Assembly (NCBI RefSeq): GCF_028583425.1
Contig: NC_072795.1
Location: 10,253,001-10,317,000 of the forward strand
Direction of reading: 5' to 3'
Length of the DNA stretch: 64,000 nt
Source of the DNA: Eublepharis macularius
Lineage: Eukaryota; Chordata; Lepidosauria; Squamata; Eublepharidae
Shown: positions 1 through 56,200 of the stretch, in pieces
How positions within the stretch are numbered: the stretch's first letter is position 1
Layout of the letters: each line of letters begins with the position of its first letter
Program-made: the position numbers and the translations under genes
Notes under the pieces: model-generated
Seen by the model: the letters and a program-made list of their open reading frames with translations, nothing else
What the model was told of the DNA's origin: nothing
The model's database searches: none

Positions 1-548
1 GGCGGGGGTGGGCAATGCCACCTGCTCCACTCCTGGTCCCACCTGAGTGAAGGGGAAGTGGGCATTGCTGCCTGCTTTGCTCCTGATCCGAGCTGGGTGA
101 AGTGGGGATGGACATTTCCACCTGCTCTGCTTCTGATCCCAGCTGGATGGGTGGGCATTGCCACCTGTTCAGTGCCTGATACCAGCTGAGTGAAGGTGGT
201 GGGTGGGCATTGCCACCAGCTCCATTCCAGATCCCAGCTGGGTGAAGGGGAGCGAGACTTTGCCACCTGCTCCACTCCTGACCCCAACTGGGTGAAGATG
301 GAGGGCAGGCATTGTCACCTGCTTTGCTCCTGATCCCATCTATGTGAAGACAGAGGGTGGACATTGTCACCTGCCCTGCTCCTGTTCCCAGCTGGGTGAA
401 GGTGGGGGTGGGTGGGAATTACCATGTACTATGCTCCTGATCCTAGCTGGTTGAAGGTGGGTGGCAGGCATTGTCACCTGCTCTGCTCCTGATCCCAGCT
501 GGGTGACGGTGCCTGGCAGACATTGCCACCTGTTCCATTCCTGATCCC
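1..548 (-). repeat. Minisatellite, about 50-60 bp unit, roughly 10 copies
   Basis: Degenerate tandem units carry the core TGGGATCAGGAGTGGAGCAG followed by GTGGCAATGCC, read on the minus strand. The array continues for about 45 bp after the transposon insertion that ends at 984. It is the same family, in opposite orientation, as the arrays at 45935-46909 and 51080-51775. The long open frames across it come from the unit having few stop triplets, not from a gene. Confidence 0.85.
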
Positions 549-585
549 GAAAAATACAAACAGAGAGAGGCACGGAAAGAATCCA

Positions 586-984
586 CAGCAAACTATGTAT
601 ATGACCATGCCTGACTAACTATGTAAATGAAGTACTATAATGGTTATGCTGAATCTTCAAAATTAATTTGAAAAAACTTTAAATACCATTCAAAAGCACA
701 AATGGCAATATCACACTCTTCTGTACGTGCATAAGACGGTTTCATTCAAATATTCAAATGTGTCATTCATATACAGTTAGTAACATTTCTTATACCAAAA
801 CATTATTTCATATTGCAAATGCCACTGAGGATTTTCAATGCAATAAATATAATACGAGTGTAACTGCTTTGTGCTTTTGAATGGTATTTAAAGTTTTTTC
901 AAATTAATTTTGAAGATTCAGCATAACCATTATAGTACTTCATTTACATAGTTAGTTGGGCACGGTCATATACATAGTTTGCTG
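586..984. mobile_element. 399-bp MITE with about 115-bp terminal inverted repeats
   Basis: The element starts CAGCAAACTATGTATATGAC and ends with the reverse complement, GTCATATACATAGTTTGCTG. The inverted arms extend to about 700 and from about 870, with a short unique AT-rich centre. CAG...CTG ends suggest a hAT-type non-autonomous element, but no clean 8-bp target duplication can be read because the target is itself repetitive. It interrupts the minisatellite of the Helitron at 1-1163, so it is younger than that array. Confidence 0.8.
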
Positions 985-1163
985 TCCATTCCTGATCCCA
1001 GCTGGGTGAAGGTGGGGGGCAGGCTCCATGTCTGATCATGACCTGGGATTTTCTGGAGGTCTGGCTGCCTCATCTGGGCTTCCCTCCGCAGCAGCACCTC
1101 TGTTGGTGCACCAGTGTAGGAAGTGAGTTGTCTTGAATACACTTAGCCTTTTATGTAATAGGA

Positions 1164-5379: not shown

Positions 5380-6425
5380 GAGATATGGAGGAGGCAGGTG
5401 GGGAGACGACATGGTGGCCGCCCTGTTGTGAGGGGCAAGGAATGACCAAGGGTGCATGCCCAAGTACATCTGGTGTGAGTCCCTGGTCTGGAGGCTTACT
5501 TCTGCCCCTCAGCACTTGGCTCCTGGCAGCAGGAGTCAGCACTGGCCTGCGAGCTGCGCGGGGATCTGGCAGTGGCCTGCAGAATAGGTGAGGCTTTGGC
5601 GGTGCCCTGTGGGCTGCATGGGGCTCCGGTGGCAGCCTGTGTGCTGTGCAAGGCTCTAGCGGCATCCTGCAGGTCACAGGAGGAGTTGGTGTGGCCTGTG
5701 GACCACACAGGGCCTCAGAGGCAGCATGCAGGATGCAGAAGCCTCAGCGCCAGCCTGCGGGTCATGGGAAGAGTTGGTGTGACCTGTGGGTCACATGGGG
5801 CTCCAGCAGCGGCCTCCAGAATGTGGGAAGCCTCAGTGCCAGCCTGTGGGTCATGGGAGGAGCTGGTGCTGGCTTGCAGGCCGGGAGGGGCTCTGGCGGC
5901 AGCCTGCAGGATGCAAGAGCCTCGGTGCTGGCCTGTGAGCTGCCTGTGGGCTGCAGGAGGAATTGATGCTGGCCTGTGAGCTGCACAAGTCTCCAGCACC
6001 AGCCTGCAGGATGCAGGAGGAATCGGCTCCAGCCGGCAGGTTGCAGGAGCTCCAGTGGCAGCCTGAAGGACATAGGAGCCTCAAAGGTGGCCTGCGAGCC
6101 ACTTGTGAGCTGCAGGAGGAATCGGCGCCAGTCTACAGGTCACCTGTGAGCCGCCTGCTGGCTGCAGGAGGAATCGGTGTTGGCCTGCAAGCTGTGTGAG
6201 CTCTGGTGGCCTGTTGTTCACAGAAGGAGGCAGCAGCAGCCTGCGGGCAGTGCTAGGCTCTGGCAGCAGCCTGCAGGATGCAGGAACCCTTGGCACTGGC
6301 CACAAACCATGCAAGGCTCTGGCAGCGGTCTGCGAACCGTAGGAGGAATAGGTTGCAAGAGGGACAGCAGCAAGCAGGCTGTGGGTGCTTTGCAGTGGCG
6401 GCAACAGCAGGAACGGTGAGAGGGC
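5380..6425. repeat. GC-rich degenerate minisatellite
   Basis: About 1 kb of imperfect tandem units built from GGCCTGYRGG, CAGCCTGCAGGATGCAGGAG and TGTGAGCTGC, with unit length varying between about 35 and 60 bases. Several overlapping frames stay open on both strands because the units lack stops. No initiation context, splice pattern or protein family supports coding. Confidence 0.75.
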
Positions 6426-11337: not shown

Positions 11338-11503
11338 TGAGCAACGAAGCCTGTTTTTAAAAAAATGGGCTCTAGAGAACAGAATGCCCTCCAGAGGGGT
11401 GGGCTACCTCGCCTGGCCTTCCTGCCACGGTAGTACCCTCTGGAGGCGCATCAGGATAAAAGGTGAGTCATCAGCAACATGGCTTGCCTTTTATATAATA
11501 GGA
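11338..11503 (-). mobile_element. Short Helitron (about 166 bp)
   Basis: On the minus strand it starts TCCTATTATATAAAAGGCAA after an A. It runs through a CTCCAGAGGG...AGGCGAGG segment shared with the larger Helitrons and ends with CTCTAGAGCCC...GGCTTCGTTGCTCA followed by T. The 3' part matches the terminal hairpin region of the Helitron ending at 51827. It has no minisatellite, so it is the minimal form of the family. Its last four bases (CTCA) deviate from the usual CTRR. Confidence 0.6.
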
Positions 11504-27470: not shown

Positions 27471-27661
27471 TTATGATGTACTGCAGCGGGGAACAGCACA
27501 GAGCTTATAAGGTTGGGGGGGCAATGTTGCCCCAAGTATAGGTTCTTCATTGAGCTGCTTTACTCCTTCTGGCAGCTGGAAGGTGAACGAATTCAGCAGG
27601 TTGATGAAGAAGATGAAAAGCTCATTCTTTGCCATTTGTTGTCCCAGGCACACACGAGCCC
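27471..27661 (-). CDS. CYP2J-like: P450 exon 9
   Basis: 191 bp including the stop; acceptor TTCTTTTCAG. It encodes [20 protein letters not shown] with the haem-ligand Cys, then [20 protein letters not shown] and the C-terminus. A near-identical copy is at 15564-15754. Confidence 0.93.
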
Positions 27662-30600
27662 CTGAAAAGAAAATAAGGGAAGAAAGTATGTCTGAACCCC
27701 CTTCACTCTCCCCACTGTGAGGCAGAATTTCCCGCCAAAATTCAGTTTCTCTGCTTTGACTGAGCTGTCCCAAGTAGTTTGTTAATAATTGTGATTTAGA
27801 AAGTCTGTTTGTCCCACCCTGATATGCAGGTATAATTTTTGGCTTTTAGCCCAGACCAGGGCCGATTCCAGACGACTAACCTTAAGTCGCCTCATGCCGC
27901 CCTCTTCCGGATCGCGACGGGGAAAATGCGAAATATCGCGTTTCCTCGCGCGAGTTTTGCGCGTCGTCGCGCAAAACTCGCGCGAGGAAACGCGATATTT
28001 CGCATTTTCCCCGTCGCGATCCGGAAGAGGGCGGCATGAGGCGACTTAAGGTTAGTTGTCTGGAATCGGCCCAGGAACTCAGTGGTGAAAAGCAGGAGAC
28101 CTCTTCCTTTTGTGCTTGGAAATGGAACTAGAGACTGTATATCATCCAAAAAGAAATAATAACTTTATTTAACAGGCAGGGATTGAGTAAGTGTAGGCAG
28201 GGGATGGAAATGTGAAGGTAAAAAATTTCTGGTACTACAGAACACACTTTGTGTAACAGGCACAATAGTACCCCCGAAGCTTGTTTTCACATATTCTTGG
28301 TTCTTAACAGCGATGTTCTACTTTGTAATTTAGTTAAAGCAACATTTCTTCAGGAAGTTTTCTATGACAGTTAAGGTTTTCTGGAGTTAATCACTTTCTT
28401 TGTGCACCTAACTCTACTTCATAATTTCATTAAAGCAACAACATTTCTTCAGGAAGTTTCCTATGATAGTTATACCATTTTCCCTTCACAACAGACCCGA
28501 GGTCCTCCTTAGAGCCAAATCTCCTTGAAAACTGGACAAGAATTAATCTTCTCCTCAGAAGATATAACCTCTCTTGTTTTTGGCTTCAACCCACTACCAA
28601 ATCACTCTCTTCCGAAACACACTGCCAACTCTCTGGTGTCTTGGTAAAGCACACTTCTATTTATGCTGACGCTTAGACTTCTAATTCTTAGATAGAGCAG
28701 GCAGTCACTCAAGCTTTCTATTCTAGGGAATAGTTAACCATTCCAGCACTGTAGAAACCTACTGTTAAGTGCAGTTTGCCACAGGCAGCAAATGAATAGT
28801 ACTTTTCCATGTATTTCCGAGGATGCACCATACTCTCCAGATGAGCATATAGCTTGGACTTTGATAAGGTCACATTACATCGCTGCACAATACGAAATGT
28901 CGCTGTTTTAAATGTTGTTTTAATATTTAATATTAATATAGATGTAATGTTTTAAATTGTTTTTTAATATTGTTAGATGCCCTGAGCCCACTTGCGGGGC
29001 GAACGGGATATAAATATGAAATCATAAATAAAATAATAAATAGTGGGTGGGCCAAGGTTTCCCTTCATCTTTTAAAGTAGCTCATTGGCAAGTTCCATTG
29101 TGACTTCCTTTTGTCTTATTCATCTACTTCGCTTGCACATGCACTCTCTCTCCATATTGTCATCATGGAGGACTCGGTGCTCAGTCATTGTATCCATGGC
29201 ATCCTTGCTTAGATAGATGAGACTAGATTTTAACTCTCCCTTTTCCTATTCTGGGTGGAATTCCTAAATAAAAGGACTCTTATTTTCCTTATTAAAGGAA
29301 GTAGACTGTACATGAGTTTTTTGCCTCATCAGCACTCACAGAGACTCCTTGCTCCACTCACTAAACTTTACTAAACCTGCACTGATTACATGACCAAAAC
29401 TTTCACTATTCCCCCCAGCCGCAAACCATAACATTTGCAATGTTATACTGCCATAGAATGAAGCTAAAAGGGAGGCGTCATCGCTTCATAGAAAACGACA
29501 TACTTTGAGTGCAGAAATGCCAACATTCTAGACCTGCTTGCATTACAAAAGGAGCTCAGAGTTGGGATTCTGTCTCAGACCCCGCTGGATGCTATGCACA
29601 GTGGTGCTATCATAGCAGGCAGTACAGGTAGGGTTGTCAACTCCAGGTTGGTGAACTCCTGGAGATATGGAGCTGCAGCGTGGGCAGAAGGACCTCAGTG
29701 TGGTATAATGCCATAAAGTTCACCCTCCAAAGCTGACATTTCCTCCAGGGTAACTGATATCTACATTCTGGACATAAATTATAATTTTGGAAGAAATCCA
29801 GGCCGCACCTGGAGTTTGGCAAACATAACTACAGTGACTAAATCCTTCCTGAATATAAGAATTCTAGAGTTTTATGAAAAAAGGAAATAAGTTATGTCCA
29901 AGCTGCATTTAATAGAATTTTACCTTTCTTTTCTTTCCTCAACAAAATCATACTAAAAGATTGTATAATGTTTGATATAAGATTTTGGTAATGGGGTTTA
30001 TAAGAACATTCTATATAAGGAGCAAATATTCCTGAGTTTAATCCTTCAGACTGCCCTATATACAACTATCAAGCACAAATTCGTTCAGAATTTTACTTTT
30101 ACCTGTACCGAATGGAAGAAAAGCTTCCTTTTCCAGAAAACTTCCATCCTTGTCCAAAAAATGATTTGGGTTGAATGCCTCAGGTGTCTCCCATTGCTTG
30201 GGATCAAGAAGAACAGATCGTAGATCTGGAAGAACAATGGTCTCCTACAAGGATGAAACTGTTGAAACTCAGGATGCATACAGTCAAGGAGATTAATTTT
30301 TTCTCAGTCACTTTCTTAATAGTAATCTTTCTTGTTTCCTAGAGTCACAAACCAACTAGTGTCTGGCCTCCAGAAGAAGATTGGATGACTGGGACATGGT
30401 TGGTGCCATCTCATTGACAGCATGATGTCATTTCTGGGTTGAACCTGGAAATGGTTATGCCATTCTAGCATTCAGTGGAAAATCTATGGTACTTCCTTAG
30501 GGTTTCTGATGAAGTCATATTACATCACTTCTGGGTTCACTGCAGAACTGATGTCATACCATCCATGTGACAGTGATATTCTCCTTGTTTTTTTCACTGC

Positions 30601-33600
30601 CAGCCTACTGAGTGGCAGCAGGGATCAGAGGGTTTCTGAGAGGAGGTTTCCCGCTATAGTTGAAGAATGGCAACCCTTCTGTTTCCAGATACCCTCAAAG
30701 GTCCAGAAAGGCCCAGGCCACTTCTAGCTTTTGAGGTCTTGAGCCCTAACAGTAAAAAGATGAAAAATGAAGACAAAATAAGGTACTAACAGGAGAGTGA
30801 GCCATAATGTGAATACTTTTGTGTACTTTTGAGGTTCCATTTGAGCTCCAGGCCCAGGCCAAATGACCCTCCTGGATCCCCAGGTTAGCCCTGGCGTTCT
30901 CCCAAATATACATGCTTCATTCTCTTGGAAATCAGGAATGTAAGCTGGATTTATAAGCATGAACCCATCAACTCATCTTGATAAAACAGAAGCTGCTTGC
31001 AGGATGAAAATGGAATGTGCCTTTGGGGGGGGGCAACATTGAGAATAAAGTAGAGCAAGCAGCTATATGTACTCCTGAAGAACTGATTGGCCACAGAAAA
31101 CTAAAAACACATTATAGTCTGTTTTACTTCTGATTTCCTCTCTTGAGTCTGGTAGGCAACCTCTGCTTAGTTGGGAAACCATGAGATGTCAGTATAAGGA
31201 GAGCTTTCCAAAGTGCTACCATTATTGTAGTACTACAGCATTTATGCTGGAAAAGTTTCTTAATAAACAAATACTAAATACATGAACACTTTGGGTACTG
31301 ATGGTTGTTCAATCATGGGATAAACTTTGAATGAAATAGAGAAGCTCAACCACAAATAGATCAGCATTGATGGGGACAGATATTGAGGGATGACACAATA
31401 ATCCCTGTATTATTTAGTATATTTCTGGGAAACAGTTCTGGTTTTTAGCCTTCAAATTTTGCCAGAGGAAGCTCCTCCTCCTATGAGGCTCCTAAACATA
31501 TAAAGTGCACCCTCTTATAAAGTCAGTTTGGTGTAGTGGGTTAAGAGCAGCGGGACTCTAATCTGGAGAACCAGGTTTGATTCTCCACTCCTCTGCTTGA
31601 AGCCAGCTGAGTGACCTTGGGTCAGTCACAGCTTCTCAGAGCTCTCTTAGCCCCACCCACCTCACAGGGTGATTGTTGTGAGGATAATAACAACACACTT
31701 TGTAAACTGCTCTGAGTGGGCATTAAGTTGTATAAATCAAATGTTATCATTATCATTATCATTATCATTATCATTATCATTATCATTATCATTATCATTA
31801 TCATTATCATTATCATTATCATTATATTGCTCTTAGGATCCAGGAGTGCAACCATAACAATTTGCTGCACCTTTGGAATGACAAAACCCATCATGTTCAC
31901 ATCCTTTGTAGTTTGTCTGGGGAGCCCAAATAATAAGATATATTGGGAACGCTGGATCTCATGAACCACAGCATTGGTGTAGGGCAGCCTCTTCCGATCT
32001 TGATAGGTGAATGACTGAGAAGAACCCAAAACCTCTTCCATCTCCTTGTGGACTTTCTCTGAGGAAACCAGTAATAGAAAAATGACACTGCATTTGCTTG
32101 TTAGAAAATCAGTGAAATTGCTGTCTCGTACATTCAATGAAGTGGAATGTATGTTGAATGAAAGGCTTTGGTCAACATCCTGAAATAGTAAGGGAGTCTT
32201 CTCAGGTCCATGCAAGAGCATATATTAAACATGAAAAGAAACCAAGAGATAAAGGGAACCATTGTTACCCTGAAGGAGAGGTGAAATTGACAGAGCCTTT
32301 GGTGATCCAAAGATTAAATTAACAAACCCTCTGAGCAGCGTTCTCTGCCAGCTCGGTGTAGAGAGGTGAAATTGAACTTTTTAAACTACACTTCCCAGCT
32401 AATATTGCATTCTCGTGTAAGATATCCCGTGCAGAAAGACTCAATGTAGGCAACTTTGAAGTATTCATTATTTGAATATCACATTTTCCTCTTCTCCATA
32501 AAAAATATATGATAAATTTTGCTAAGGAATTCTGGAATATGGTTTCATTGTTCATAAAGAAAATGTTGGAATTGCATATTACCCTAGATCCCACGATATT
32601 TTTATTGTCTATGTTTGATAGCAAGTTTTCAAAGGAACAAAAATACTTATTGCAACATATTATTACTGCTGCAAGACTGGTTTATGCACAGGTCTGGAAA
32701 CAAAAGTGTGTACCTGATGAGAAAAAATTAATAGAGAAGTTGTTACATTGTATAGAAATGGACAGACTTACCTCAATTCTGAATTTAGAAAATAACAAAA
32801 CTTTTGTAGACAGATGGAAAGACATATATCTTAAGCTGAATTTGACAACCAAGTATATTATTTTATGAAACTTATATTAGTTATTATATTGGATGTATAA
32901 TTAAGTTATATAAGAATATTACTTTGCAGTATTTTCGCATCGCTCCCTTGTGTAAATAATTGAAAATTCTTAATAAAAATATTGGGGAAAAAATATATGA
33001 TAAATTTTAAGTCTATCAAGAGGAAACGTTGATGATTTCTTTTGAGGATAAGTTACATAAACTATTAATCCTTATGGCGTATTTTGTATGTTCATTTAGT
33101 ACAGATTTACCCTTCTCTTGTTCAAATAGATCAGAACAGCACATTTCACATCTGTTTTATCATCCAGAGAGACAATAACGGGCCTAAGATCATCCAGAGA
33201 GGTCTACGGTCACCCGGGGAGTGAGGATTTGAACGTGGGTCTAATTCTAGATTCCAGATTCTAGTTCAGCACTTTAATCATTCTATCAAACCGACTTTCT
33301 CAGATGGAAATCAAACATCTTTATTGTGCCTCTAAGTCCTTTAGCCTTTTAAAAACTTCAATAATAATCCCATCATTTAACCCATTTTTCAATGCAATTT
33401 GCTTTAAAATTCTTGGGAAGTTTATTCTAGAGGCATGTATTTTACACAGCCAATACCCCGTGTGGATCCAAAGAGAGTGCCACTTTATTCATTCGTTCTT
33501 ATTTCCATTTAAGGATGAGTAGGGTTGTGCTAATGATTAGCTACTCAATATGAAAATTTAAAAGAATCAGAACCTGTTTACTAAAGATAGGAAGAAAAAT

Positions 33601-44283: not shown

Positions 44284-47200
44284 ATTGTTATTAAGCAAGC
44301 AAGCATTGCATTTTTGTCAGACAGGCAAAGGAATGCTTAAAAGGTAACATGTTCAGACAATAGCTTATTCTGTCGGGTCACACATGTGTAATGTAACAAA
44401 CTGACTTTGCACTTTAAAGGGTGACATGCATACTAAAATTTCTAACTGAAATATAACTGTGAATTGATCATTGCTATAAAAGTTGGTTGCTTAGGGGAGG
44501 GTTAGAAGATACCATTTTGCTTTGGATTATCCTGTCATTTCATTGTAATTAAAGTTTGTGATCCATTCTCCTTACTCCAGCCTTTGTGTCTGATTGGATA
44601 AGCCATCGAAGAGCCGACTTCGGCTTAACAATAACATAAAGTCCACCTTCCAAAGCTGCCATTTTTCTGTAGAGGAACTTATGCCTATAGTCTGGAGATC
44701 AGTTTTAATTCTGGGAGATCTCCAGGCCTATTTTGGGGCTGGCAACCTATTTGTACAGTTAAATTATTCCAAACATCCAGTGAGTAATTTAAAAAAAAAG
44801 TTATACCACAGTAACCATGGACCAGCTGTTTCCTAATATCACATACCCTTTGAAGATGCAAAAGTCTCAATAAGCTGTTGGGCCTCCTGTTGTATTTGGT
44901 GCTCCAGGCCTTTATTCCCCAGTCCCAGCTTCCGCATGGCAACTATGCCACATTTCCTCTGCTGCTTCCAGGTGTGGCCATTTGACAATATCATACCTAC
45001 GGTCAGGAAGAAACAATGAGAAATTAGTACTAAAAAAATCCCTGTTAATAATGGTTTGGTTGTCAGCCTAGAAAAGAGACTGTGTGATGAAAAGTTACCA
45101 CCTTTTAAAAAAAATATAGAACTGCAATCCCATTGCAGAATCAATGCCATGTGTTTTGGTGATATGTCTCCGATACTGGCCAACTATATATGCTCCAGAA
45201 AAGCAAAGCTTATTCACTCCCTTCTTCCAGCATTCAAACATTCAGGGCTAGTATACAGTACATTTTGTCCTATCTAACTGATCTTGACTATCCCTCATTT
45301 TAATGCTATTTTAATTAGGGATGCCATGAAGTTTATGGGGAACATCTCTGATAATTGAGGATACCTTATTCAATTTTAAAGGCCAGATGTGTTTCAATCA
45401 ACAAAGGACTTATTGATTCACCAGCAAAGGACTTGAACATGAGAATAAGATTTAAATGTAACGCCCAAAATACAAATGTATAAAGAAGTAGATCTTGAGC
45501 AGAAATATCCTTTATTTTCTTATAATTAGATATATGATAAGAGTTTACTGTTGTATTCTGGTATATTATCTATTAATGTTAAAAGTTATAGTGTTTATGT
45601 AGAAGTGGCAAAAGTAGGTAGTATTAAATATGCAGCAATGATGGAACAAACAATGTACTTGTAAAAGAGATTAGTTATGAAATTTGAAAATTGAGAATGT
45701 TGAACATAAGTTTACCCAATATAAGTAGGTATCATTTTATTTTATAGATAATGTCCTTAAAAAATTAATGAACGAGATGTTGGGAAAAATATTTCCTGTT
45801 TTATATATTGTATTATTTAGAATTATTTTAGATCTATGCTATTATCTTACTATATAAAAGAGTAAGTGTGTTCTAGACAACTTACTTCCTATCCTGGTGT
45901 GTCACCAGAGGGTGCAGCTGTGAAGGAAACCCAGGCTGGGATCAGGAGGAAAGCAAGTGGCTATGCCCACCCCCTGCCTTCACCGGCTGTGATCATGCAT
46001 GGAGCAGCTGGCAATGCCCACCCCACACCTTCACCCGACCAGGATCAGACAAAGAGCAAGTGGCAATTCCCATTCCCCTTTCACCTGGCTGGGATCAGGA
46101 GTGGAGCACGTGGCAATGCCCGCTCCCCTTCACTCAGCCAGGATCAGATATGAAGCAGCTAACAATGTGCACCACCCCTTCACATGACTGGGATCAGGTG
46201 TGGAGCAGGTGGCAATGCTCACCCCCACCATCACATGGACAGGATTTGGAGCAGAGCAGATAGCAATGCTGGCCCCTGCTTTCACCCAACTGGATTCAGG
46301 TGTGGAGAAGGTGGTGATTCACGACACCCAGCTTCACTTACCTGGGATCAGGAGTGGAGCAGGTGGCAATGCCTGTCCCCCACCATCACCCAGTTGGGAT
46401 TGGGAGCAGAGCAGGTGGCAATACCTGCCCCCTTCAGCTAGCTGGGATCAGGATCAGAGCAAGTGGAAATGACCCCCCAACCGTCACACAGGTGGGATCA
46501 GGAGCAGAGGAGGTGGCAATGTCTTCCTTCTTTACCCAACTGGGATCAGGAGCAGAACAGGAGGCAATGCCTGCCCACTGCGATCACCCAGTTGGGATCA
46601 GGAGCATAGCAGGTGGCAATGCCCATCCCTTTCACCTGGCTGGGGTCAGGAGCAGAGAAGGTGGCAATGCCCACCCCCACCATCACTCAGTTGGGATTAG
46701 AAGCAGAGCAGGTGGCAATACCAGTCTCTTTCACCTGGCTGGGGTTAGGAGCAGAGCAGGTGGCAATGCCCACCTCCTGCCTTCACCTAGCCAGGATCAG
46801 GCATGGAGCAGGAGGCAATGCCAACTCTCCCTTCAACCAGCCGGAATCAGGCATGGAGAAGGAGGCAAGGCCTTTCCCCCATTCACCCAGCTGGGATCAG
46901 GTGTGGAACTGACAAACAAAATCGGCCGTTCTTGTACCAAGCTATCGAATACAGAGGGAAACCACACCCACAGGAAACAGGTTAACAATTAGTAGAAAAA
47001 TTGTAATTATTAAGTGCAATTGAAAGTGCAAAGTGCTACTAATTCATAAATACTTCCATAAATCCATTCATAAATACAGGAGACAATAGTACATTCTTAA
47101 CACTCATACAAAAAGACCTTATCAAATAACTAATTCCGGGTACCTAGCAGTCTTTATACAAATACCTCCATTCATCAAACCAATTCCAATACATTAATAC

Positions 47201-50200
47201 AGAAGTCTTCTATTTTTTTTTTCAGTCCTTCAACACGGTAGAATTGTCACAGCTGCAATGAGGCATGTCTCAAATTAACGTTCTTGTAAGGGTTAAACTA
47301 TTCAGACCTTGACGATCCTTCAGCCTAATAAGGTGTTAATAGCTGCAGTAAAGTATATTTCCACATAGCATCCTTCCCATCAAGGTGCAATTATGTCAGC
47401 AGCAGCAGAGCATAAAACAGCAAATGCTCAATCTGACGCCGGCTGCGAGCAGATTTCGCGCCTGCTTGGCTTCTTCAGGAGTGTATGCTCTATATAAGAT
47501 ATAAATTCAATCAGCCTTTCTACAAAACAGCAGCATAATCCAATAAACATTTCAAAAAGTGTAATTCACACTTACATAATGGTTGAAAGACGGCATCATA
47601 AACACTTGAATCAAATGGCCCGGTAAAGGCGGCAATACTCTTTCGCACGCATCTGTTAATTAGGGCAGTCCTCTTAAATCTCCAATAGCCTCGAAGCTTC
47701 ATTTGGTTCTTAAAGGCTCCCACTAGAAAGGACCCTTTACAGATAACAATTTAGTAATAGCTCACTATTTAGCCCTTCGGTTTGGCTGACTCAAGCCTAA
47801 AGATCCAAAACGCTTCTCTTTGCAAAAGCTTAGCCTGTATGGACTCACGATTAGGGATGTGCGTTTCGGCATTCAGAATGCCGAAAGAATGCCGAAACAA
47901 AAGTGTTTCGGCTTCTTTCGGGGAATGCCGAAACGTTTCGGGGAATGCCGAAACGTTTCGGGTAGCCGAAAGAAAAAAGCCGAAACGTTTCGGGATTCTT
48001 TCGGCTTTCTTTCGGCTTTTCAATGGGAAAATGCCTCCGTCTTCCCGGACGTCTGGGGGAGGCATTTTCCCACCGAATAAGCCCAAAATTGGTGGGGACC
48101 TTCCTCTAACCCTTCTCTAACAACCATCCAAGTTTCAGACAGATTGGACTTTGGGGGCCATGTTATGGCCCCCCAAAGCAGGTCCCCCCATCCTCCCATA
48201 AGAAAGCGAAGGAGCAGCATATTGTTAGCATGCTGCTACTCATCTTCTTCATTATTTCCTATGGGGAAAAAATGAAGAGGCAGGCTTCCTTTGCCAGGGG
48301 TGGCATTTTGCATGCAAAATGCCCCCCAGCACTCAGGGGCCTTTCTCCCACCCCTCCTCCCACCCCCCACCAAGGCTCAGCCTGCTCCCACTTGGGGGGG
48401 GGCATTTCATGGCCTCCCCAAGTAGGTGCTCTTTTCTCTACCACTGACAGCTGGGGAAGGCTTGTCTTGCCAGGGGTGGCATTTTGCATGCAAAATGCCC
48501 CCCAGCCCTCTGGGGCCCTTCTCCCACCCTTCCTCCCACCCCCCACCAAGGCTCAGCCTGCTCCCACTTGGGGGGGGCATTTCATGGCCTCCCCAAGTAG
48601 GTCCACTCAGCCCCTAAAGTCCACCCCTTACAGCCCCACACAAACCCAATTCCCCCCCAGCTGCCACACACAGACCCAAATCCCCACATTAGCCCCTCAC
48701 AGACCCAAATCCACCCCCACCTGCTCCACACCCATAACCCCAGGAACAGGCTGGCAAAGGCCAGCCCTCTCCCTTTGTTCCCTATGCTGGGAACTTCTAA
48801 ACTCTCTTTCCCTGGGCAATTCTGCACAGCCCAGGGGTGCCACAATGGTGGGCACACTTCTGAGTGCCAGCTGGTCCCTGTGAAAGAGCACCTGAACCAC
48901 AGACACCCTCCCTCAAATTCCCCCACCACCTACAGAGATGGCTGGCCAGCCAGCCCCATTGTTCCCTATGATGGGAACCAACTGCACAACAAAGAATAAA
49001 ACAAGAACAACACAAAATAAAGTTTTAATTTTTTTTCTCCCTTCCAAAGTACAAGTAGGCAAAGCATTATGACACATTACACCAGCAGTCCCCCACACAG
49101 ATAAATAACACAACTCACTTAACATTCAGAGAATCACAAAGCATGATTCCTGTCAAAAACACTTTATTTCTTGAACAGCTTTAGGTTACACAGCAGGGGG
49201 GAACACCAAAGGGCATGGCAGCATTATCTTACACAAAAATAACACAACTCACTTAACATCAGAGAATCACAAAGCATGATTCCTGTCAAAAACACTTTAT
49301 TTCTTGAACAGCTTTAGGTTACACAGCAGGGGGGAACACCAAAGGGCATGGCAGCACTATCTGACACAAAAATAACACAACTCACTTAACATCAGAGAAT
49401 CACAAAAACACAATTCCTGACATCATAGGGAACAATGGGGCTGGCTGGCCAGCCATCTCTGTAGGTGGTGGGGGAATTTGAGGGAGGGCATCATAAACAC
49501 TTGAATCAAATGGCCCGGTAAAGGCGGCAATACTCTTTCGCACGCATCTGTTAATTAGGGCAGTCCTCTTAAATCTCCAATAGCCTCGAAGATTCATTTG
49601 GTTCTTAAAGGCTCCCACTAGAAAGGACCCTTTACAGATAACAATTTAGTCATAGCTCACTATTTAGCTCTTCGGTTTGGCTGACTCAAGCCTAAAGATC
49701 CAAAACGCTTCTCTTTGCAAAAGCTTAGCCTGTATGGACTCACGATCTTTCCTATTGACAACTTCTAAAATTGTCACCATAAAATCGTTCTCTAGATGTT
49801 TGTATTCCTTAAAATGTTGGGTAAAGGGAGCTTCCTGAATGTCATTGCGAATGCGAGATATGTGCTCCAAAATGCGTACCTTAATTGGTCTCGAGGTACA
49901 TCCCACATACAATAACTTGCACGGACATTCTATAACATAAACAACTCCCTTGGTTTGGCAATTAGCAAAGTGATGAATCACATGTCTGTAGTCTTTGAAG
50001 TTAAACTCCTTTCCTTCCAGAAACAACTTACATATTTGGCAACGGCCACATTTAAAGTTACCCTCTGGTAGATGTTTTAAATCCTCAGTGTAACATATAT
50101 CTGCCCAAATTAAATTGTTTCCCTTAATTCTGTGTCCTCCGAAATCCAATTTTTGGCTTAGATTCACACCCCTTTATGCTCTCTATGAGGTTCCAATGTT

Positions 50201-53200
50201 TATGAATTATTTTCTTAATATGGTTAGCCCTTGGAGTAACCTTCAGCCAAACCGAAAGGGCTAAATAGTGAGCTATTACTAAATTGTTATCTGTAAAGGG
50301 TCCTTTCTATTGGGAGCCTTTAAGAAACAAATGAATCTTCGAGGCTATTGGAGATTTAAGAGGACTGCCCTAATTAACAGATGCGTGCGAAAGAGTATCC
50401 CCGCCTTTACCGGGCCATTTGATTCAAGTGTTTATGATGCCTTCTTTCAACCATTATGTAAGTGTGAATTACACTTTTTGAAATGTTTATTGGATTATGC
50501 TGCTGTTTTGTAGAAAGGCTGATTGAATTTATATCTTATATAGAGCATACGCTCCTGAAGAAGCCAAGCAGGCGCGAAATCTGCTCGCAGCCGGCGTCAG
50601 ATTGAGCATTTGCTGTTTTATGCTCTGCTGCTGCTGACATAATTGCACCTTGATGGGAAGGACGCTATGTGGAAATATACTTTACTGCAGCTATTAACAC
50701 CTTATTAGGCTGAAGGATCATCAAGGACTGAATAGTTTAACCCTTACAAGAACGTTAAGTTGAGACATGCCTCATTGCAGCTGTGACAATTCTACCGTGT
50801 TGAAGGACTGAAAAAAAAAATAGAAGACTTCTGTATTAATGTATTGGAATTGGTTTGATGAATGGAGGTATTTGTATAAAGACTGCTAGGTACCCGGAAT
50901 TAGTTATTTGATAAGGTCTTTTTGTATGACTGTTAAGAATGTACTATTGTCTCCTGTATTTATGAATGGATTTATGGAAGTATTTATGAATTAGTAGCAC
51001 TTTGCACTTTCAATTGCACTTAATAATTACAATTTTTCTACTAATTGTTAACCTGTTTCCTGTGGGTGTGGTTTCCCTTGGGATCAGGTGTGGAACAGGT
51101 GGCAATGCCGCCTCCCTCTTTAACCTGCTGGAATCAGATGCAGAGCAGGTCGCAATGCCCACCCCCCTTCATCCAGCTGGGATCAGGAGCAAAGCAGGTG
51201 GCAAAGCCTTCCCCCAACCTTCCCCCAGCTGGGATCAGGTGTGAAGCAGGAGGAAATGCCCGCTCCTGCCCTCACCCAGTTGGATCAGGCATGGAGCAGG
51301 CAGCAATGCCCGCCCCCTTCTCCCAGTCGAAATCAGGTGTGGAGCAGGAAGCATTGCCTGCTCCCCATTCATCCAGATGGGATCAGGAGTGGAGCAGATG
51401 GCAATGCTGGCATCCCTTTACTCAACCTGGATCAGGCATGAAGCAGATGGCAATGCCCACCACCCCTTCAGGTAAATGGGATCAGGCATGGAGCAGGTGG
51501 AAATGCCTACCACCACCTTCACCAGCCAGGATCAGGAGCAGAGCAGGTGGCAATGCTCACCCCCCACCTTCACCCAGCTGGGATCAGGAGTGGAGCAGGT
51601 GGCAATACCTGCCCTCCCCCCTTCACTCAACCGGGACAAGGATCAGAACAGGTGGCAATGCCAACCCCCCTTTCAACCTGCCAAAATCAGGCTCTGAGCA
51701 GGCAGCAATGCCCACCTCCCCTTCACTCCACTGGGATCAGTCATGGAGGATGAGACAATGCCCACCTGCCTGCTCTCCTCTTTCTAGAGCTCGTTTTATT
51801 ATTTCCCACAACGGGTTTTGTTGCTGGTGTTATATAATCTTCTTTTTTCCTTTCTGTATTCCCTTTATTCTATAACTTTGTTTCTTAAAATATAAAAAAA
51901 GAAAAAAGGACTTGAATGCATTTACTGAACAGGTTTGCATTGGGCTTTCTCAAAACTGTACGTGTACCTAAACCCTGCCAATACAAATGCTTTGGCAGCA
52001 ATTAATGTCACAGTAATATTTGAGTGTGTATATATGAAGAGCTGTTGCTACATAGCCTTCTGCAGAGACATTGACAGAGATAAGAGAGCATCCACACAGT
52101 AATTTTGCCTGTGTTTTCCCTGCTTCAACCATCTTTAGCTACCATTATCTCCCAAGGCACTCATGCTTTCTCAGGCTTGTTCAAATATCAGCAATTGGTA
52201 TTATGCTAATATGCAATAATGGTAAAATGGTCTTTGCCACAATCTCCTATCTTTTTTAGTTATTTTCCATAATAACTAAAGAAGTCTCTAGCTCTCCTCT
52301 TTACAGACTGCAATGACAAGGACTAGACTCTTGGAAGGAAGAAGGGAGGAAGGAAGGAAGGAAGGAAGGAAGGAAGGAAGGAAGGAAGGAAGGAAGGAAG
52401 GAAGGAAGGAAGGAAGGAAGGAAGGAAGGAAGGAATTCAGAGATCATGGCATAAACAGTTATAATGTGACTGTGAGTTATTTGTTTATAGTTATTAAAAT
52501 ATTTATACTCTGTCTTTCCCATAACTCCAGGCAGCTTACAAGTTCAAATTTCAAGGCATACCAATTACAATAAGCCCCCACGTAACTCCTCCCCCCAAAT
52601 TCCTACAGCATATATTCCATTAAATGTCCTGCCAAACAGAGAAGACTCAAAGCACTTCATACAAATGTTTCCATGTAGCACGTTCCTTCACCTTCTCAGG
52701 AAGCCCATTCCACAGGGCAAGAGCTATGGTGGGAAAAGCACAGGCTGTGTGCCAGAAAGGCTGCCCTAAGCGGAGTCTGCTTTTCCAGCAGGAACACTTT
52801 GTGTCCAATTGGACGGAAAATCCTGGCGGTCTTTAATGGGCCACTGGACTCCAATCCTGCTGCTGTGCTGCAGACCAACATGGCTACCTGTCTGAAATGA
52901 TCTTCATGGTAGATTTAACAATAGTAACAAGGATGTCTTTCTCCCGTCCACCTTTAAACAAATATGCTCCACCAGTGCAACTATCACAACCTTGCTTCTG
53001 AAGCCATACCTGAAGCTAGATTGAAATCATACACAAGAATAAAGGGCAGATGTGTCATTCAAGAACCCAAGTTTATTGCCTTTGCAGAAAAGGTAAATTG
53101 GAGACTCACCTGTAACTGGCCACCTCATCTTGAACCAATAAAGATCTCTAAAGCAAATTTCTAACACCTCTCCCTTCACCCAGTCAGTGAGGCGTTCATT

Positions 53201-56200
53201 ACTGATTTTAACCAAAGGCTTTGATAATTTTTCCCAGCATGATTTTAAAAGCTAGGACTGGCATGGGTCAAGTGGTGGCTCTCACATTCCTAAGGAGCCT
53301 GTTCAGTATTCATTGGCAAGATACACTGCCATCTATTCATAACTATTCATAAGCAGGTACTTCTTCTGACAACTTGGGTACTGGCTGTACTCTCAACTTG
53401 GCTTCCAAGTTGGAACAGGTAAGAGCGATGTTATCATCAAAGAATGTTAATTCAGTCATAGGGGCCAAATTAACATTATTAACAGGGTTGAACTTAGGTG
53501 TTATCAAGTCTTCAAGTTCAGCTGATGCAAGAGTGGCAGAGAATATTCTCTTTGCCAGCAATACTGCCACCTCGTAGGCCTGAAAATGGGTTGTATGGCA
53601 TGCTATGACTAATTCAAGCTAAGTCTTCCACCAACAACATTCTAGTCACCTCCCAGACCACTTTCTATCTTATGACAACCCATTATCCCATGCTGAGACA
53701 GTCATCAGGGAGGCTTTCAAAATCCCTCAGAGTCACCTGGAAATCTTTAGTGTCCATTAATCTCCAAGAGCATCTGAAACGGCCCTCCATCCCCACAGAA
53801 CAGCGAAAGAAATAAGCATGCTTCAACCTAATTAGATTAGCAGAACTTTTCAAGGTTATGAGGAGCCCCAAGCAACAGATGCGGGGTACCCAAAGTAGCT
53901 TCTAACACATTCCGAAGGAGGGAAGATTGCTCCCCTCTCCCTGTACCCAAAAGGAACAATCTCTGCCTGTAAAGTACAAGGTTGTTGAAGCAACATTTAG
54001 ACACCTTTGGCAAATGTTACATTGTCAAGAGGGCAGGAAATAATATTAACTTTATGAATGGGAAAGTGTGAGAAAGGAAAGAGATGTTCCTTGAAGAGAT
54101 AAAACAATGCACTAAGATGATAAGCAATGCTAATTGGGAAATATTGTAATTGAGTTGCTGACCAGAATTATTCTTCTAATAAGAGACCACTAGATCATTG
54201 GAGGTGGTCACCAGCATAAACCAATGGGGGCCATAATTATGTTTGAGCCAACAGGACCCCCAACATTGTAATGAACCAAAGGGTGTCAGGGCTTGTTGCT
54301 GCCGCCACTGGGCGGGGCCCCAGCTGGGCTGGCCCTGACACCAGAGGGGCACCAGGGATACTGCAGGACCCTGCTCTGTGGAAGGAGGGGCGGTATACAT
54401 CACCCAGACTCCCTCTCAGTCCACTCGCTGGCCTGCTCAACCTGGCCTGCTTACCCTCTGCGTCCTCCATCATCTCCTCCTCCCAGAACTCTCCTCCAAG
54501 CCTCCACTCTCACACTGCTCTGCTCTCACTCCACACCATCACTCCTTACTCACACCCACCACCTCAGAGCTCTTCCTAGCCACCTTATATAGGGCTTCCT
54601 TGCCCCGCCCTCCTTCTAGGCTTGTTCCCTCTCCTGACTTGGCCCAGCTCTGCCTTCCCTCAGGTGTTTCCCTCCTACCACTAATCCCTTCTTGGCTTCC
54701 TTGCCTTGCTGGCAGGGTGGGGCTGAATGCGAGCCATCCCCAGCTGAGGTCTCCTTGGCCTTGCTCACAAGGAGCTGCCCCAGCCAGCTTCTGTGCTGCT
54801 GAGCATGCTTGGCCTTGCTCGCGAGGAGCTGCCCCAGCCAGCTTCTGTGCTGCTGAGCATGCCTGGCCTTGCTCGCGAGGAGCTGCCCTGGCCAGCTTCT
54901 GGGCTGCCTGCTCATTGATGCCAGGCGGGGCTACCCATCTCCTCCCCCAGAATGCCTCTGGTAGCTCCACCTGGAGGGGCTTGGCTCCTAGCACCTCCGG
55001 AGCCAGGCTGCTGTCCTCTAGCCAGGGTGTGGCTCTGGGCTGTAGTGGCTGCTTCTCCTCCTTGGAAGGTAAGGGCTCTGTTTGGGCTGTTGCTGGGTCC
55101 CTATTCCCCCTGCCTTGGCCCTTTTCCTCTAGCCTGCTTAGTCCCCTCTCTTCCCCCTGGGGGGAGGGACTAGCTGGCTTCTCCCTGCTCCCTCCAGCCT
55201 TCTGAGGCTTTGGCCTTTCGCCCCTTCCCCCTGGAGTAGGCAGGTTCTGACTCTGTTTGCCAGACAGAGCAGTTGAACTGCTGTCTCCCGGCTGCCCCCT
55301 GCCGCTGCCTGTCAGCAAGTCCGGGAGCTGGGCTGCTGACCCCAGACACAGGGTACAAAATGTCTTGCACAGCTATTGTAGCTTCGATGAGCATTGGACA
55401 CGATGGAACCTTCTACTCTCTGTGCAACTGATGCTTCTCCACATTTAATAAACATAGTAGACTTGTTTCATTCACAGGACTCTGGGTCTGTCTCTTCTTG
55501 GAATTGGCTGAGGGACCTTCAAACCACTGATTGTGTGGAACAGAAAGAAACACTACCTCCCCCACCCCCATTCCATTTCAAGGTTTGTGAAGAACTTTCT
55601 ATACAGCTGCTGGCAAATGTGCTTGACTAACAACATCAGATTCATCTAATTAAAGTTTCCATCAAGTACTCCAGGCTACCTGTTCCTCATACAACAAATC
55701 TGATATTACAGATCTTATTTTTCATTGACCTGGCCTTACAAAGGACCAAGGCTGAAGTGGAGTTCCATAAGAACCTCAGCACATGCATCTCTTTAGATGG
55801 AACAGAGAGTACACATGCAAGGTGTGCCACCATGTCTCCTTGGATGTCTTCATGCACCAACACTCCTTCCACTTCCATATCTTCCCACTCTGTGCACCAT
55901 TTATATCAGAGATGAGCCAAAACACATGCTGTATCAAACCACCAGTATCATTTCATCTCCCTTGGCATCCAACACTACTGCTTGCAGGAATGGGACTCCA
56001 AGCATTATAAAGGTCAGCAGATGGCTGATAAAAGAACCTGCTGTGTCAAGAGCTATCCTTCTGGAGCAGGGAATCAAACAACCCATTGTCCTCTTCCCAT
56101 GCACTCACACTATTTTCACAGGGCTCTCCTCAATGACTAGAGGCAAGCAGATAATAACAAGAGGTTGGGAGGAATAGATGGCTCAATCTCCCCTTCTTTC

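Follow-up and report, generated by a model that had tools for sequence, protein, structure and literature searches.

The 64,000-nucleotide stretch of the Eublepharis macularius genome analyzed here (contig NC_072795.1, positions 10,253,001 to 10,317,000; hereafter the window) contains three copies of a rolling-circle transposon. With high confidence, we assign them to a large family of non-autonomous canonical Helitrons, recognized by a 5'-TC start, a 3' palindrome followed by CTAG and insertion at A|T. Most sampled copies have as their interior an array of an approximately 50-bp minisatellite joined to the conserved 5' segment (the head) at a fixed place, and the array was very probably already present in the ancestral mobile copy. 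Because this minisatellite lies inside a many-copy rolling-circle element, its arrays have most likely been spread by the Helitron. The copies in the window, and the parts of the first, are the following.

45845..51827, plus strand: first copy, a complete non-autonomous Helitron, 5' A|TCTTAC..., 3' ...GTTGCTGG|T, about 4.1 kb of it inserted later
45845..45937, plus strand: conserved 5' terminal segment (head) of the first copy, with the first repeat unit 94 nt from the 5' end
45938..46901, plus strand: left part of the minisatellite array, period approximately 50-52 bp (Tandem Repeats Finder, TRF: 45929-46901, 19.3 copies)
51079..51770, plus strand: right part of the array (TRF: 12.8 copies at 51096-51740)
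51776..51827, plus strand: conserved 3' terminal segment (tail) of the first copy, ending CTGG (CTAG in 12 of 16 complete elements)
1..1163, minus strand: second copy, cut by the window edge, with its head at 1163 and the minisatellite in the same relative orientation
11338..11503, minus strand: third copy, 166 bp, without an array, A|TCC at the 5' end and CTCA|T at the 3' end, with a weak tail match

The original prediction, made from the window alone, held that the elements at 45845 plus, 1163 minus and 11503 minus share one 5' end, and sequence comparison within the window bears this out: all three start A|TC and have their 5' ~90-104 bp in common. The 1163 minus copy matched the 45845 plus copy at 78% over 91 bp (E 1.7e-14), the 11503 minus copy matched it at 70% over 94 bp (E 3.6e-4), and the second and third copies were 69% identical over 104 bp. 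At the other end, the first copy finishes CTGG|T at 51827. The 166-bp copy stops at 11338 with CTCA|T, its tail being a 74% match visible only at a permissive cut-off; the 3' end of the second copy is not seen because the window edge cuts the copy whose head lies at 1163. The same ~50-52-bp repeat fills the first and second copies in one orientation relative to the head, as had been claimed, with the correction that 46955-51078 of the first copy is not minisatellite and that 579-991 interrupts the second. Since about 4.1 kb of the first copy is a later insertion, its array proper amounts to about 1.7 kb. The 166-bp copy was also correctly described as empty of minisatellite, the window comparison giving no unit match in 11338-11503.

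The family was then traced through 72 contigs (2.24 Gb), with reversed patterns as controls. A 29-nt head pattern (at most 2 mismatches) matched 204 times, a second head variant (21 nt, at most 1 mismatch) 1,637 times, the last 24 nt of the family (at most 1 mismatch) 4,069 times, and a 25-mer across the head-array junction (at most 2 mismatches) 1,573 times; every reversed control gave 0 matches, and for the head the contrast of 204 with 0 excludes chance. Copy number, common ends, fixed junction and orientation, insertion at A|T, empty sites and a decayed coding copy were all observed on samples, each hand-picked among listed places and not random. The head sample comprised 20 of the 100 listed among the 204 matches to the first 29 nt, all with 0 or 1 mismatch. 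The repeat stood at a fixed offset and in the same orientation in 18 of these 20 loci (L040 and L042 held no unit), 17 had at least three unit matches, and a tail followed within about 1.9 kb downstream in 8. Units were also present in 20/20 heads taken from the best-scoring matches, a set that is biased and not fully independent, its query having held about 23 bp of the repeat. The tail sample, 12 of the 100 listed among the 4,069 matches to the last 24 nt, all on contig C1, showed the array in eight copies. A third sample of eight loci was picked by repeat similarity among 3,141 candidates, 40 of which were scored, the eight coming from these 40; in this hand-picked set seven arrays were accompanied by a correctly oriented head, tail or both, the opposite of arrays lying mostly without these flanks, and the eighth (L067) had neither head nor tail within its 2 kb. 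Loci L001-L008 coincide with the window copy and L009-L015 and were counted once, and L013 and L014 are one duplicated segment and not independent.

Across the 42 regions scanned for units, 40 contained matches collinear with the head. In 25 of them the distance from the 5' end to the first unit was 92-99 nt, in 14 it was 141-145 nt, and in the second window copy 127 nt. Sixteen complete elements were taken from 43 oriented regions, leaving out L028 (its tail is the neighbor's), L010 (its tail match stops short) and the coding copy L053. They measure 293 to 5,983 bp, the longest containing the later insertion, and carry 3 to 33 unit matches between their ends. The complete elements display the 5'-TC and 3'-CTRR ends of canonical Helitrons: 14 of 16 start TC and the other two CC, and 13 of 16 end CTRR (12 CTAG, 1 CTGG), the rest ending TTAG, TTAG and CCAG. 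The tail also has the canonical 3' palindrome, 9 bp long and followed by CTAG. Of 44 tails, 41 were aligned. In the palindrome 89.2% of 360 cells were paired, compared with 31-55% when the palindrome was slid, and among the five tails folded singly the palindrome was clear in L053 and L065 only.

Insertion sites agree with the same assignment. The complete elements lie between A and T with no duplication of the target, the left base being A in 16/16 and the right base T in 15/16; the oligo-T insertion of Helentrons and HINEs was not seen. Three elements on three contigs (L018, L038 and L049) interrupt one host repeat at the identical point, AAAGCTTA|TG, and the unsplit repeat is abundant: a 27-nt pattern with at most 2 mismatches occurred 64,396 times (reversed control 0). 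The expectation that paired ends would define A|T insertions with matching empty sites was therefore borne out in the samples. Beyond the junction, the right flank carried the motif T N6 W W A in 20 of the 29 tails kept, against 535 of the 4,893 A-T sites of the window, a comparison whose P value is descriptive because the flanks that supplied the motif were also those in which it was counted. The 29 were kept from 42 clear-ended tails after abutted and duplicate flanks were dropped, a rule that also removed one ordinary flank (L070) and retained the abutment at L028 and a pair of facing tails from a single locus. The bat element Helraiser is reported to insert at A/T, to form circles and to prefer AT-rich DNA, most strongly on the 3' side (PMC4778049), and the gecko motif agrees with this 3'-side preference. 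As a separate observation, two Helitron tails face each other at L066:1567-1715, with about 15 bp between them, each backed by its own array.

We also searched for a possible source of the transposition machinery. The RepHel family PF14214 gave 14 genome matches, several of which are pieces of one copy. Locus L053 is a decayed coding copy lying between a similar head (E 1.4e-4) and a similar tail (E 1.7e-8), with ends A|TCC and CTAG|T; its frames are broken throughout, and its helicase part was recognized by eye, without a score. L053 likely represents the type of driver. From these features we infer a sequence of events in which an ancestral mobile Helitron copy would already have contained the array, and rolling-circle transposition, as befits the family, would have copied the array along with the element. 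Mobilization would have occurred in trans, through RepHel-coding relatives with similar ends, and unit number may then have been altered by unequal exchange or replication slippage.

Several observations weigh against this account. No tail was found within about 1.9 kb downstream in 12 of the 20 head-sampled loci, and many copies must therefore be truncated, interrupted or diverged. Arrays of this kind are missing from 4 of the 12 tail-sampled copies and from the third window copy, so the array is not obligatory. The palindrome shows no covariation, column shuffles being equally paired (89.3%); variation set by column composition alone is expected of copies decaying after insertion. Folded singly, the tails of the window element, the third copy and L012 did not clearly outperform shuffles. 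The coding loci L029, L031 and L032 had no similar ends within about 1.5 kb on each side, and no intact driver could be shown. Finally, the best matches of repeat units are slightly higher within their own array than between arrays (P 5e-4), a point taken up below with the origin of the arrays.

The ends of the family also meet one another. The junction CTAG|TCYTACTATATAAAAGAG (29-nt pattern, at most 3 mismatches) occurred 49 times and CTAG|TCCTACTTTATAAT (28-nt pattern, at most 2 mismatches) 124 times, with controls of 0; the two lists overlap at 3 or more places, and some places are possibly duplicated segments. In 10 of the 49 CTAG|TCYTACTATATAAAAGAG loci that were fetched, unit matches lay on both sides of the junction in all ten. 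Random A|T hits are expected to give about 0.02-0.09 abutments for 4,000-8,000 copies, and exact tail-to-head abutments are thus far commoner than chance. Three of four fetched CTAG|TCCTACTTTATAAT copies were 93-99.7% alike across a segment of about 300 nt that comprises the junction and the sequence upstream of it, and 124 matches therefore need not mean 124 events; this junction may have been copied as a unit.

Two explanations were considered for the abutments. One is that new copies repeatedly land exactly at resident 5' ends, the sequence favored on the 3' side of targets, A|T N6 W W A, resembling the element's own 5' end, A|TCCTACTATATAA, and in this way link minisatellite arrays into head-to-tail chains, with a higher frequency near contig ends. 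We put this forward tentatively, as a possibility somewhat short of even. Of 97 heads with at most 1 mismatch on contigs of known length (2 of 99 places, on contigs of unknown length, were left out), 44 lay within 10% of a contig end, against 19.4 expected; the P value of 1.5e-8 is too strong because duplicated segments were kept in the count. If true, the element both disperses arrays resembling variable number tandem repeats (VNTRs) and stacks them into multi-array clusters. The other explanation is that the abutments are rolling-circle concatemers, with arrays growing through the same read-through. The 49 and 124 CTAG|TC junctions in two head variants, with their empty controls and the negligible random expectation, speak for it, as do the tandem Helitrons known in plants and bats (PMC5876387). 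However, the abutted halves (two heads or two tails) were no more alike than random pairs in 7 of 8 comparable loci, the exception being L056, whose tails fall within the top 5% of random pairs, and one L061 tail is on the opposite strand. Insertion into A|T at any resident 5' end yields the same junction, and in maize two unlike adjacent Helitrons with an exact CTAG|TC abutment were read as consecutive insertion (PMC2267711); that report describes one case, compared with the 49 and 124 junction matches here and units on both sides in ten fetched loci. The unlike halves favor one element inserting after another at the A|T that a resident 5' end provides, rolling-circle dimers are unsupported as a source, and we regard concatemer formation as unlikely.

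Among the 100 listed of the 124 CTAG|TCCTACTTTATAAT matches, six pairs stand in opposite orientation (-/+) 34.7-44.7 kb apart.

C11:21939518/21974186, minus/plus: CTAG|TCCTACTTTATAAT pair
C3:31889738/31934408, minus/plus: CTAG|TCCTACTTTATAAT pair
C4:30111725/30150845, minus/plus: CTAG|TCCTACTTTATAAT pair
C7:78212034/78248130, minus/plus: CTAG|TCCTACTTTATAAT pair
C8:119091243/119130300, minus/plus: CTAG|TCCTACTTTATAAT pair
C9:85548578/85586845, minus/plus: CTAG|TCCTACTTTATAAT pair

By arithmetic, about 0.2 pairs would be expected within 45 kb for this junction, and the six may correspond to inverted termini of some large repeat or mobile element. Other neighboring pairs closer than 50 kb were -/- at 34.7 and 7.3 kb and -/+ at 17.6 kb.

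The divergence of the units bears on how the arrays travelled. Unit identity was 0.756 within arrays and 0.750 between them, and the best match of a unit was 0.856 in its own array versus 0.848 in another. The near-equality within and between arrays indicates that most of the unit divergence predates the dispersal of the arrays, and the small own-array excess indicates some turnover after insertion. The simplest reading of these sequence comparisons is a founder whose array would already have been mixed, whole arrays then being copied along with the element and units gained and lost afterwards. Positional inheritance of units was considered and set aside: first units were slightly more alike across loci (0.802 versus 0.775; 0.778 versus 0.747); last units were more alike in one group only (0.803 versus 0.699, partly through shortened units), the other group showing no excess (0.697 versus 0.724). 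Array lengths, counted as unit numbers within this one genome, differ between loci.

Whole-array copying has a less likely competitor, in which the Helitron spreads only a seed and arrays regrow after insertion from one or a few units. The 166-bp array-less copy, the copies with 1-3 unit matches and the slightly higher own-array best matches would suit such regrowth, but the identities of 0.756 within and 0.750 between arrays do not fit a recent local expansion, only a very old one, and we judge it improbable. It is very improbable indeed that Helitrons inserted many times by coincidence into, or next to, minisatellites of an ordinary dispersed kind: arrays with other units do occur elsewhere in the window and L067, one of the eight array-centered loci, has no Helitron end within 2 kb, but in 40 unit-bearing regions the array runs collinear with the head, always oriented the same way and joined to it at a fixed offset, the junction has 1,573 genome matches, and the outer flanks of the 16 complete elements differ and rejoin at A|T sites without the repeat.

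The original prediction that the array is spread by a rolling-circle transposon is thus sustained in the samples by the fixed junction and the A|T sites; its companion suggestion, that the array arose inside the Helitron, found no support in the likeness of the unit to either the head or L053. The Smith-Waterman score of unit against head was equalled or exceeded by 62% of 500 shuffles, and the unit had no significant match in the decayed L053. The head of one subfamily contains a 35-nt partial duplication. Four loci (L072, L073, L083 and L081) form a younger-looking subfamily with the tail in common and different cargo; L081 aligns with itself when shifted by 60 nt (76% over 94 nt) and may hold a second minisatellite.

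Minisatellite-carrying rolling-circle elements are already known in flies and oysters; the gecko family is of the canonical Helitron type. Drosophila DINE-TR1, which has over 1,000 copies, two conserved terminal blocks, a core of tandem repeats and repeats that can become satellites (PMC9957191), resembles it in having such a core within a non-autonomous rolling-circle element, but is an insect Helentron type with central repeats of about 150 bp rather than about 50 bp. HINEs have subterminal inverted repeats and insert at oligo-T (PMC7492417); insertion in the gecko family is at A|T. In the oyster, the dispersed satellite-like arrays of Cg_HINE are cores of non-autonomous rolling-circle elements to which, in that account, no autonomous partner could be linked; these are of Helentron type, with monomers of 140-180 bp and mostly at most 5 units (PMC7492417). 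Bat HeliBat/Helraiser resembles the gecko family in its TC...CTAG termini, 3' palindrome, A|T insertion, 3'-side AT-rich preference and the precise head-to-tail junctions of its circles; the portions of that report cited here mention no minisatellite cargo (PMC4778049). A 2025 review calls central arrays in Helitrons and Helentrons a common example (PMC12628747).

Top-ranked literature titles and abstract openings included no minisatellite-carrying Helitron in a lizard or other vertebrate, which is weak evidence. Transposon-borne repeats in a vertebrate have reportedly been described by Hikosaka and Kawahara in 2004, judging by the title, as a Xenopus miniature inverted-repeat transposable element (MITE) carrying tandem repeats; the carrier there is a MITE and in the gecko a Helitron. 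The gecko family offers a testable route for minisatellite dispersal in a large animal genome: one repeat recurs at many loci in a constant orientation, and the sites of insertion can be recognized. Since units are almost equally diverged within and between arrays, it can be used for asking how array length changes after a known start, and the frequent exact self-abutments, mostly of unlike halves, open Helitron target choice to study from sequence alone.

Both array-bearing window copies are interrupted by insertions.

46955..51078, no strand assigned: later insertion splitting the array of the first copy, with 823-nt inverted arms (46955-47777 and 50256-51078) that are 99% complementary
49667-50173, minus strand: GIY-YIG frame inside this insertion (within 46955-51078)
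579..991, no strand assigned: inverted-repeat insertion inside the second copy, with arms of 124 nt that are 96% complementary

The array of the first copy resumes at 51079, and the left boundary of its insertion falls between positions 46901 and 46955. Read by eye, the 17 nt at 46893-46909 recur at 51080-51096 and may be a target duplication. From the GIY-YIG frame and the layout, this insertion is probably Penelope-like. It also holds a 269-nt direct repeat (47583-47851 and 49478-49746, 98%) and other intervening sequence.

Further tandem repeats in the window have periods of 54 bp (54754-54907) and 88-89 bp (5650-5937); BLAST of the ~50-bp unit against the window gave no match to either. 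Cytochrome P450-like frames lie on the minus strand at 27474-27845 and 31625-32224, the latter holding a (TTATCA)n run at 31744-31825, and reverse-transcriptase frames are also present in the window.

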